Source: Truepera sp.
Lineage (GTDB): Bacteria > Deinococcota > Deinococci > Deinococcales > Trueperaceae
DNA: 64,000 nucleotides
Reading direction: 5' to 3'
Assembly: GCA_032027045.1 (NCBI GenBank)
Contig: JAVSMU010000001.1
Coordinates: 1,449,756-1,513,755, forward strand
Shown: one piece after another, positions 17,132 through 22,393 of the stretch
Layout: the number at the start of each line of letters is the position of its first letter
Numbering within the stretch: position 1 is the stretch's first letter
Program-made: the position numbers and the translations under genes
The notes under the pieces: generated by a model
What the model saw: the letters and a program-made list of their open reading frames with translations, nothing else
Databases searched by the model: none
What the model was told of the DNA's origin: nothing

Positions 17132-17929
17132 ATGTCCGACGTGGCCACCCCGAGCGTAGGCTGGACCTGCCCAGCCTGTGGGCAGGTCAACCTGGCCGGC
17201 GTCACTTGCGACGCGTGCGGCGTTGCCCGCCGCATCACCGACGACCCGCCCCTCGACCTCCCCTACCGCCCGCGTCTAACGCGGCTGCCGGCGTTCTGGC
17301 TCGGGCTCATGTGGAGTGCGGTAACGCTCCTAGGGTTGATCCTGTGGCTCTCGCCACTCGCGCGAAACGCCATCGGGAACTTCTTCCTCCTCGCCCAGAT
17401 AGTCGGGGCCGGTGGCGCGGCCGTGTCCTCCATCTTCACCGCCTTGTGGCAGCGGATCTTCAACGAGGTCGAGTTGGTGGTGCCGCAGCAGGTGCGCACC
17501 GGTGAGATGCTCGAGGCCGAGGTCCGCCTCGTGCCCTACGAGACCGTCGGCAACGTCTTCGTGAAGGTGGCGCTCTCCGACCGTTACTACCAGAGGACGA
17601 GGGAGGGGTTCGAGATGGAGCGCCGCGAACTCGAACACGACGTCCTCCTGAGCAACGCCAGGCTACGGGGCCGCAGGCTGACGAGCGTGACGGCGAAGTT
17701 CATAGCGCCCTTTCCCGACACCCCTCACGAGAGCCTGCAAGCCAACATACTGGCCGACGTCCTCGGCCTGCTGTCGTTCGCCGTCCCCGCGCTGGCCTGG
17801 CAGGCCAAGAACTTGCGCGAGCACGGCGGGTACTTCGTCGAGGCACGGGTCAGGGTGGGCCTGCTGAGCCGCAGGTATCACAAGCGGGTCTTCGCTTACT
17901 ATGTGGGCGATGCCCTGCACTTCGGGTAG
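17132..17929 (+). CDS. Membrane protein with N-terminal zinc ribbon, function unknown
   Basis: 265 residues. Residues about 10-32 hold two CxxC pairs (CPACGQVNLAGVTCDACG), a RanBP2-like or zinc-ribbon motif. Two hydrophobic segments follow (about 55-75 and 85-105), then a soluble C-terminal region of ~150 residues rich in strands. That region includes EAEVRLVPYETVGNVFVKVA, suggesting an arrestin- or immunoglobulin-like beta domain, but I do not recognise the family. The topology suggests a membrane anchor with cytoplasmic ends. Monocistronic and divergent from the M20 operon. Confidence 0.65.
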   Translation: MSDVATPSVGWTCPACGQVNLAGVTCDACGVARRITDDPPLDLPYRPRLTRLPAFWLGLMWSAVTLLGLILWLSPLARNAIGNFFLLAQIVGAGGAAVSSIFTALWQRIFNEVELVVPQQVRTGEMLEAEVRLVPYETVGNVFVKVALSDRYYQRTREGFEMERRELEHDVLLSNARLRGRRLTSVTAKFIAPFPDTPHESLQANILADVLGLLSFAVPALAWQAKNLREHGGYFVEARVRVGLLSRRYHKRVFAYYVGDALHFG

Positions 17930-18045
17930 CGGGCTCTTGAGCAGCGGTTGGCTTGAGAACCGCGGATTATGCGGCGGCTGTCGCGGGAGGGGGCTTACTC
18001 GAGGGTTTCGACCTGGCGGTTCTGGCCCTGCGTTTTCGCACTGGC

Positions 18046-18501
18046 TTATCGCACGCTGGTTACTTCGCGCTGATCGCGCGTCACCTCCTCGATTCGCATG
18101 CTGAAGTTGGCGCCAAGGGCTTGGAGGATGCGCTGCGCTTTTTCGGTGCTGACATTGTGGTATTCGTTGCGCTCGTCCTTCGAGACTTGCGCTTCGCTCA
18201 CTTGCAAGAAGTCAGCGAGTTGCTTTTGCGTCCACCCCCGGTAGATGCGTAAACCGATCAACCAACGGCCGATTCCACTCAGGTTGCTGAGCGAATCGAA
18301 TTGGCCGCGCCGCATGCGCTCGTACGCTTCGACCTCTTCGACGAGCTGCGCGTGAAAAGAGAGCGCCGGTTGCATAGCGCGAATGATTTCGTCTTCGCTC
18401 AAGTTCGCCTGTCCCAATGCGGTTCTGAGTTGCTCAAGGTAGTCCTTGTCGCCTCCTAGGCGTTCTTTGGCGCGCGTGTATTCAGCTTCCGTCCTGATCA
18501 T
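18046..18501 (-). CDS. XRE-family helix-turn-helix protein
   Basis: 151 residues. The C-terminal half is an HTH_3/Cro-type DNA-binding domain: IGRWLIGLRIYRGWTQKQLA, then DFLQVSEAQVSKDERNEYHN. The N-terminal ~75 residues are helical and charged and may mediate pairing. It is encoded directly after the nucleotidyltransferase-like gene with an ATGA overlap, the layout of a toxin-antitoxin or self-regulated two-gene module in which this would be the repressor/antitoxin. Codon use is less GC-biased than neighbours, hinting at horizontal origin. Confidence 0.8.
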   Translation of the reverse strand: MIRTEAEYTRAKERLGGDKDYLEQLRTALGQANLSEDEIIRAMQPALSFHAQLVEEVEAYERMRRGQFDSLSNLSGIGRWLIGLRIYRGWTQKQLADFLQVSEAQVSKDERNEYHNVSTEKAQRILQALGANFSMRIEEVTRDQREVTSVR

Positions 18502-18980
18502 GGCTTCTGGTCCTCCTTATCTGGGTCACGGTCTGCTTTGGACGCCCTCACGATTCTGACGATGCCTTTGGCTTCGTTCGTGTCTCTCCTGACTCGGAAG
18601 GCGGCGGGGAACTGAAGGGCATTACCGTTCTGGTCACGAAGAGCGATCAAACCCGGGAAGTGAGGGTAGAGCGCATTAAGGCCATCTTGTAATTGGCCGG
18701 AGGCGTAGTACTTCAGGTCGACATGAAAGTAGCCGTCTATGTCGTTCGGGTGCGCTTTTGCCTCCACGAAGGAGCCGTCGAGGAAGATCTGCTCGATGCC
18801 CACCTCCCACAACTGCCTGACCATCCGTTCGGCCTGGTCGATGAGGTACATGCGCCATGGCCCATCGAGCGTGACCTCTCGTGTGCCGCGCACGAGGACG
18901 GACTCTCGAAGCTGTTCGAACGTCACCTCGTAATCCCCAGGCGGGAGAACTCCACTGGGAGTGAAACCGGGAATCGACAC
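18498..18980 (-). CDS. DUF6932-like nucleotidyltransferase-fold protein
   Basis: 160 residues. IFLDGSFVEAKAHPNDIDGY contains GS-x9-D-x-D, the active-site signature of the nucleotidyltransferase fold (as in MNT and AbiEii toxins). The N-terminal IPGFTPSGVLPPGDY resembles the opening of DUF6932 proteins. Biochemical activity unknown; NMP transfer to RNA or protein is possible by fold. GTG start at 18980 has GGAGG 10 nt upstream, and an in-frame TAA lies just before. First gene of the two-gene unit with the XRE protein, behind a good promoter at 19002-19030. Confidence 0.65.
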   Translation of the reverse strand: MSIPGFTPSGVLPPGDYEVTFEQLRESVLVRGTREVTLDGPWRMYLIDQAERMVRQLWEVGIEQIFLDGSFVEAKAHPNDIDGYFHVDLKYYASGQLQDGLNALYPHFPGLIALRDQNGNALQFPAAFRVRRDTNEAKGIVRIVRASKADRDPDKEDQKP

Positions 18981-19001
18981 CCGTTCTTAACCTCCAAGTG
19001 T

Positions 19002-19030
19002 AGTCTAGCAACTCTAAACCTACGTGTCTA
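19002..19030 (-). promoter_or_regulatory. Promoter of the nucleotidyltransferase/XRE pair
   Basis: On the minus strand TAGACA (-35, 19025-19030) and TAGACT (-10, 19002-19007) are separated by exactly 17 bp; a GGAGG ribosome site follows (18991-18995) before the GTG at 18980. Confidence 0.5.
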
Positions 19031-19201
19031 CCATCACGGCGCCTCGTTTGAACACGCCGCGATCGCCCTCTCCTACATGCTCATAGCGCATTGCACGCTT
19101 GCTTTTGACCCGCCCGCAGAGCCCAGTAAATGCGGGCCATCATTTTGCAAGTGGAACAAAGGCTCAGATGCTGATCGAAGCACCTGCATTATGCGGACGG
19201 T

Positions 19202-19528
19202 CTACTTGAGGCCGGGCACCTCGCCCAACCAGCGATAGCGCTTGAGGTCGACGCGGTCGTTTACCACTTCCACGCCCTCCGAGCGCAGCAGCGCCACTTG
19301 CAACTCGCCGCTGCCCACCTTGTAAGTAGAGATGCCGCCGGAAGCGTTGATGACGCGTTGCCACGGCACGTCGCCATCGGCGTCACGCAGCCCGTAGAGC
19401 ACCGTCCCGACCTGCCTGGCGTTGTTGGGCTTCCCAGCCAGCAGCGCCACCTCGCCGTAGGTAGTCACCTTGCCCGTGGGCACGGCGCGGACCACCCGTA
19501 GGACGGCTTCACGGAAGTCGGCGGCCAT
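19202..19528 (-). CDS. Alkyltransferase-like protein (ATL)
   Basis: 108 residues, only the C-terminal DNA-binding domain of O6-alkylguanine-DNA alkyltransferase. The active-site PCHRV of true methyltransferases is replaced by PWQRVI, with Trp at residue 56 in place of the acceptor Cys, the hallmark of ATL proteins. These bind O6-alkylguanine without repairing it and flag the lesion for nucleotide excision repair. The HTH and arginine-finger regions (YGEVALLAGKPNNARQVG) are present. ATG 19528 has TACCAT 5 nt upstream. Divergent from a small membrane gene at 19592. Confidence 0.9.
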   Translation of the reverse strand: MAADFREAVLRVVRAVPTGKVTTYGEVALLAGKPNNARQVGTVLYGLRDADGDVPWQRVINASGGISTYKVGSGELQVALLRSEGVEVVNDRVDLKRYRWLGEVPGLK

Positions 19529-21715: not shown

Positions 21716-21792
21716 CGGGGCGTAGCGCAGTCTGGTAGCGCACCTGGTTTGGGACCAGGGGGTCGCTGGTTCGAATCCGGCCGCCCCGACCA
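21716..21792 (+). tRNA. tRNA-Pro (anticodon UGG)
   Basis: 77 nt. Acceptor CGGGGCG pairs with CGCCCCG, anticodon stem CCTGG/CCAGG with loop TTTGGGA giving UGG, T loop TTCGAAT, encoded ACCA. TATACT at 21664-21669 may be its -10 box. Confidence 0.94.
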
Positions 21793-21854
21793 CCGTTCGC
21801 CCACCGCGAGGCCTCTCGCGCAGCGCGACGGGCACGGGCGTAGTCCGACGCCGA

Positions 21855-21930
21855 GCGGGAGTAGCTCAGTTGGTAGAGCGACAGCCTTCCAAGCTGTAAG
21901 TCGCGGGTTCGAATCCCGTCTCCCGCTCCA
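21855..21930 (+). tRNA. tRNA-Gly (anticodon UCC)
   Basis: 76 nt. Acceptor GCGGGAG/CTCCCGC, anticodon stem ACAGC/GCTGT with loop CTTCCAA giving UCC, T loop TTCGAAT, encoded TCCA end. Confidence 0.94.
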
Positions 21931-21951
21931 CTTCATACGCCGGGGTAGCGC

Positions 21952-22027
21952 GCACCAGTAGCTCAGGGGATAGAGCAGCCGCCTTCTAAGCGGTAGGCCG
22001 AGGGTTCGAATCCTTCCTGGTGCACCA
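21952..22027 (+). tRNA. tRNA-Arg (anticodon UCU), island attachment target
   Basis: 76 nt. Acceptor GCACCAG/CTGGTGC, anticodon stem GCCGC/GCGGT with loop CTTCTAA giving UCU, T loop TTCGAAT, encoded ACCA. From 21987 its 3' part is identical to a second copy at 35232, so it is the integration site of the downstream island and was restored on insertion. Confidence 0.94.
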
Positions 22028-22156: not shown

Positions 22157-22393
22157 TTATCGAGGCGCTCCGCACCTTCTTCTCGGCAGGTAGGCAGGAC
22201 ATTGGCCATAAGCGTCAAGGGTGATAGCCGCGTTCGCGTGCCCTATACGCTCGCCAACTCCTTTGGGGTTTATGCCCATAGCCATTAGCAGCGTCGCGCG
22301 AGCATTGCACAGATCGGGGAGCCTAATAGAGCTGTCCAGCCCAGCGCACTTCAACACAGGCTTGAATGAGTCCTTCGGCCGGTCGTCGCCCAC
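22157..22393 (-). pseudogene. Tyrosine recombinase (integrase) C-terminal remnant
   Basis: 78 codons from a GTG. The stretch ARATLLMAMGINPKGVGERI followed by GHANAAITLDAYG matches the C-terminal catalytic region of phage integrases (normally HDLRHTHATLLL... and a final Tyr). The catalytic HxxR has become LPDLCNA, so even this piece is inactive, and an in-frame TGA precedes it. The rest of the enzyme is missing. Position and orientation beside the attachment repeat suggest the island's original integrase. Confidence 0.75.

Follow-up and report, generated by a model that had tools for sequence, protein, structure and literature searches.

The 64-kb stretch of DNA analysed here (the window) appears to harbour a mobile module of toxin-antitoxin (TA) type, in which a DUF6932 protein would serve as the toxin and an XRE-family protein as the antitoxin, with the window copy most likely combining a disarmed toxin and a functional antitoxin (a reading to which we assign a probability of about 0.6). 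For the DUF6932/XRE family at large, comparison across loci leaves the TA reading well supported. DUF6932 is mentioned in no paper of the literature searched and has no family in NCBIfam, and the pairing data point to toxin as its likely role and to an XRE protein with an N-terminal helical domain as its partner.

The window genome (2.92 Mb, one contig) contains a single DUF6932 gene, located at 18498-18980 on the minus strand, with a GTG start and a product of 160 amino acids. The assignment follows from the open reading frame call and from Pfam (PF22014; 91 bits, E = 1.2e-25, cut-off 27, positions 1-141 of 142). The gene occupies the toxin position of the pair and, judging from its sequence, its product is probably inactive. 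The G-S-x(n)-D-x-D motif of Pol-beta-type nucleotidyltransferases is present as a GSx9DxD signature (residues 69-82; 18735-18776, minus strand), and all four named residues of G69-S70-(9)-D80-I-D82 are invariant in the family alignment A1. No useful close relative came up when the PDB, phages and viral contigs were searched by sequence. The second gene (18046-18501, minus strand, ATG start) is the conserved partner of DUF6932 and encodes 151 amino acids, composed of an N-terminal helical domain of ca. 70 residues and a helix-turn-helix (HTH), for which the Pfam families HTH_31 and HTH_3 both score above their cut-offs, while no peptidase or HEPN domain was detected in it by Pfam. Its product is presumed to be antitoxin and autorepressor. 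The two genes share an ATGA stop/start overlap (18498-18501, minus strand), with a Shine-Dalgarno-like AAGGAGG just 5' of it within the DUF6932 gene, an arrangement which suggests translational coupling of both genes. The same ATGA overlap is found in a DUF6932 remnant from Frigoriglobus, and a 4-nt overlap in many plasmid relatives.

A preliminary description of the locus had read the first gene as a DUF6932-like nucleotidyltransferase and the second as an XRE regulator overlapping it by ATGA, all of which is borne out by these data, and it had further claimed less GC-biased codons than in neighbouring genes and a promoter of the module's own. The codon claim is accurate, with GC3 at 0.70-0.71 in both genes vs 0.83-0.93 in six neighbouring genes, making the pair foreign in this respect. 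As for the promoter, the 17-bp spacing stands, in a weak candidate TAGACA-17-TAGACT (19002-19030, minus strand) that matches at 9 of 12 positions: the scan returned 1 match vs 0.3 expected in shuffled sequence, and the transcription start it predicts would coincide with GGAGG (18991-18995, minus strand), where the ribosome would bind to translate DUF6932. A search for repeats yielded no convincing operator and no convincing terminal inverted repeats.

Pairing of the two genes is conserved well beyond this genome. DUF6932 loci were gathered from the window genome's relatives of Deinococcota type, plasmids, one genome contig and viral contigs, and at 30 of the 34 (five phyla and viral contigs) the next gene downstream, on the same strand, is of the XRE family. 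The partner takes the form of either a short XRE protein (window, Bacillota, Planctomycetota and some cyanobacteria) or an XRE-ImmA fusion. Four loci depart from this arrangement. On viral contig L034 an intact DUF6932 gene is accompanied by a partner that retains the N-terminal helical domain without the HTH, a form which hints that this domain binds the toxin; at L020 both genes have decayed; L035 encodes a divergent DUF6932 protein, the partner of which is not an XRE protein and has no PADLOC match; and at L005 the contig ends at the locus. Three further loci with weak PF22014 matches (L006, L021 and L022) were rejected, their reading frames showing no DUF6932/XRE pair. Distance matrices of the DUF6932 and XRE proteins are correlated (r = 0.82, 22 pairs, 0/5000 permutations, the permutation ignoring shared ancestry), which shows co-inheritance and not contact. 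The retention of this gene order in different phyla puts the pair well past what chance would give. The likeness to TA operons noted in the preliminary description extends past the window, with conserved pairing in other genomes, association with plasmids and mobile DNA, and the features of type II-like TA systems: a small two-gene operon with overlapping genes, mobile and patchy spread, and co-inheritance.

The window module sits in a segment of ca. 1.2 kb (17966-19196) between an arrestin-like gene (17132-17929; named by eye, no Pfam match), which adjoins the XRE side on the opposite strand, and an alkyltransferase-like gene (19202-19528; Pfam DNA_binding_1). DUF6932 is absent from all five congeneric genomes, where the conserved flanking genes are directly adjacent with a gap of tens of bases, compared to 1272 bp in the window. 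The site being empty in 5/5 congeners, the module is therefore an insertion, and its horizontal acquisition by the window genome is supported. The sequence ATTATGCGG occurs at both ends of the segment (17966-17974 and 19188-19196) and nowhere else in the 64 kb; a target-site duplication is possible but only suggested, because a shared 9-mer has a probability of about 5% by chance. Elsewhere in the window, a cluster of three tRNA genes precedes a short fragment resembling an integrase C-terminus (21716-22027 and 22157-22393; the fragment recognised by eye, no Pfam match).

Relative to full-length relatives (49-58% identical), the window DUF6932 gene has lost 102 bp in frame. The junction maps to 18669-18677 (minus strand) in protein alignments A1 and A2 and in pairwise DNA and protein alignments, and the 34 missing residues sit between ...GLN and LYPH.... 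The stretch removed, LDP...YRVE, includes the conserved E of a (V/G)EL motif, which is kept in 12/12 of the other A1 sequences and, in the wider alignment A2, is absent besides the window copy only from the divergent L035. The deletion is seen directly in the assembled sequence, and the conservation of the lost residue in the alignments. In Pol-beta-type enzymes a third acidic residue is located on a following strand, and the window copy lacks it; the comparable strand reads RVDIV in MNT proteins and RVELY in DUF6932 relatives. This correspondence makes the (V/G)EL glutamate the probable third carboxylate of the nucleotidyltransferase, and we infer that the window protein has probably been disarmed by its loss. 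Mutating the two Asp residues of the window copy would be uninformative, because the likely third carboxylate has already gone with the 34 lost residues. Natural in-frame deletions of this kind amount to ready-made loss-of-function alleles, indicating which residues matter.

Structural models are in line with the loss, though all were built with AlphaFold2 on shallow alignments (7 sequences). The model of the full-length protein L032 (pLDDT 73.8, pTM 0.75) has a strand at residues 142-147, which is missing from the window model (pLDDT 76.6). With Foldseek, neither the full-length nor the window model had a significant match in the PDB or among viral models, the best value for the full-length family model being E = 0.3, with nothing at E<=0.001. 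Among these non-significant top matches, nucleotidyltransferases are many for the full-length model (including MNT, Pol mu, LinB, AAD9 and Tam41) and few for the window model. Aligned with MNT proteins by hhalign, the family profile scores weakly (E about 0.02, probability 2%), with the motifs nonetheless in register.

Decay across the family is asymmetric. Five loci combine a broken DUF6932 gene with an intact XRE gene (the window, L029, L044, L004 and L007), and an intact DUF6932 gene having lost its whole partner was found at none of the 34. On a plasmid of the planctomycete Frigoriglobus, the DUF6932 remnant has lost another stretch in frame, this time with GSx9DxD in it, while ATGA and XRE are intact; in Oscillatoria (L044) DUF6932 is frameshifted and XRE open; and L004 and L007, from relatives of the window genome, likewise have frameshifted DUF6932 and open XRE genes, where the frameshifts may be assembly errors. 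Decay that spares XRE is the pattern expected of a harmful DUF6932 and a protective XRE, and the asymmetry, in small numbers, thus points to DUF6932 as the toxin and XRE as the antitoxin. A second line to antitoxins comes from a solo XRE paralogue in the same genome (L028:1270-1962, minus strand; genome C1:1917984-1918403), which is of the same family as the window XRE protein, 51% identical to it, and ends in an Xre_MbcA_ParS_C domain. This toxin-binding domain ties the window XRE family to antitoxins, in the manner of RES-Xre/MbcTA-type systems, although the window protein itself lacks it and is partnered by DUF6932 rather than RES. The paralogue was considered as partner of a DUF6932 protein of its own and rejected, there being no DUF6932 or other toxin gene beside it; an XRE gene of this type is also found in congener G001 (L025).

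The closest architectural counterpart is PD-lambda-2, a three-gene TA-like phage-defence system of a HigB-like, an XRE-peptidase and a P4-antitoxin-related protein (Vassallo et al., 2022, PMC9519451), in which B is toxic alone and rescued by A, with C required for defence (PMC9519451). Like the module, it has the gene in toxin position first and an XRE-containing protein second. The PADLOC model PD-Lambda-2_B matches proteins encoded by the second gene on rhizobial and Acinetobacter plasmids (E = 1e-74 to 1e-78), including L013 and L015, the latter carrying Peptidase_M78, and PD-Lambda-2_C matches the next rhizobial gene, a third gene being present in L013 and L014. In the rhizobial plasmid operons, DUF6932 therefore occupies the HigB-like toxin position ahead of PD-Lambda-2_B and PD-Lambda-2_C homologues, linking DUF6932 to a phage-defence architecture of which the toxin part is apparently exchangeable. 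The window module is akin to PD-lambda-2 in architecture and not a member: its first gene is DUF6932 only by Pfam and not HigB-like, its XRE protein of 151 amino acids has no Peptidase_M78, and there is no third gene of the beta family, the arrestin-like flank on the other strand adjoining XRE instead. On viral contig L050, a third gene looks beta-like by eye only.

The preliminary description knew of no characterised pair of this composition, which is inexact. Xress-MNTss of Streptococcus suis is a reported Xre-MNT TA system, toxic only when the toxin is exported to the periplasm (PMC8406773), and PADLOC lists a defence candidate, PDC-M63A, the model of which matches the window protein in part (residues 11-88, E = 3.4e-9) and DUF6932 proteins at E 4e-8 to 6e-15. 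By description, Xress-MNTss shares with the module a nucleotidyltransferase-type toxin and an XRE antitoxin; its toxin, however, resembles kanamycin nucleotidyltransferase, and its locus tags place the antitoxin ahead of the toxin. The PDC-M63B model matches neither the window XRE protein nor any partner protein scanned with PADLOC, PDC-M63AB conferred no defence in E. coli NILS69 (PMC12409345), and distant blastn in E. coli genomes recovered a short ImmA stretch only and not the E. coli PDC-M63 locus. The HEPN-MNT (type VII) and MenAT/AbiE (type IV) systems are, like the module, mobile and of two genes, with a minimal nucleotidyltransferase bearing GS...DxD. The partner in HEPN-MNT is HEPN, whereas that of the window is an XRE HTH protein, and MenAT/AbiE joins an AbiEii-type nucleotidyltransferase to an AbiEi-type partner, as opposed to DUF6932, a separate Pfam family, with an HTH protein. 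The available text of Makarova et al. (2009), with the table that lists predicted systems, shows no nucleotidyltransferase-Xre pair (PMC2701414).

PD-lambda-2 also raises the question of which gene is the toxin. As it is B, and not A, that is toxic alone in that system (PMC9519451), the roles in the module may by analogy be reversed, with the XRE or XRE-peptidase protein harmful and DUF6932 neutralising it, for instance by nucleotidylation as MNT does to HEPN; in the available text of PMC11586414, MNT is indeed the antitoxin of HEPN-MNT. Such a reversal seems unlikely to us, given that the five loci with broken DUF6932 and intact XRE would be harmful ones were XRE toxic, that the XRE paralogue bears an antitoxin-type domain, and that the window XRE protein has no peptidase or HEPN domain. 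An ordinary mobile regulator, in which an XRE repressor and a nucleotide-binding partner are non-toxic, would account for the lack of a defence phenotype in PDC-M63AB (PMC12409345) and for the weak fold evidence (Foldseek best E = 0.3), yet it leaves unexplained why the catalytic motif is conserved family-wide, why DUF6932 sits in PD-lambda-2-like operons and why decay is asymmetric between the two genes, and we regard it as similarly doubtful.

A different alternative concerns the window copy only. Its reading frame is open, its ribosome-binding site and GSx9DxD are intact, and short-form relatives vary in, or lack, part of what was deleted, all of which would suit a toxin that is still active, the deleted segment being dispensable and another acidic residue substituting for the lost one. 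However, the short-form relatives keep the E and LDP, which the window copy has also lost, and the strand carrying the E is missing from the window model, rendering this quite improbable.

The TA reading with a disarmed window copy is accordingly preferred, and its proposed course is as follows. DUF6932, encoded first, would be a minimal nucleotidyltransferase-like toxin, coupled via ATGA to an XRE protein whose N-terminal helical domain would bind the toxin and whose HTH would repress the operon. By analogy with MenT, AbiEii and MNT enzymes, an active toxin would nucleotidylate a component of the cell, e.g. tRNA or a protein. The module would have entered the genome as an insertion of ca. 1.2 kb, and the toxin, in the order we infer, would then have lost 102 bp in frame and, with them, the beta strand that carries the third acidic residue, the antitoxin staying intact. 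The present copy would thus be a disarmed toxin with a functional antitoxin or repressor, possibly an anti-addiction or leftover element. A broader proposal, to which we give somewhat less than even odds, is that DUF6932 constitutes a family of nucleotidyltransferase toxins, interchangeable before XRE antitoxins and, in longer operons, taking the place of HigB in phage defence of the PD-lambda-2 type, and that the toxin has decayed repeatedly while antitoxin and ATGA were spared, leaving protective anti-addiction relics such as the window copy.

Further observations concern the surroundings of these genes. On the Acinetobacter plasmid pAC1633-1 (L015), the DUF6932/XRE-peptidase pair follows directly after Tn7-like tnsD/tnsE, and its third gene is cut to 66 amino acids, with an IS30 transposase and blaNDM-1 next in line. 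At L012, L016, L039 and L041, on plasmids of cyanobacteria and alphaproteobacteria, a DUF4186 gene and then a gene of ~1 kb lie behind DUF6932/XRE-type pairs, possibly forming a larger conserved cassette. In the window genome, AbiEii-type nucleotidyltransferase matches number four, with one (C1:1446380-1446934) lying ~3 kb before the window.
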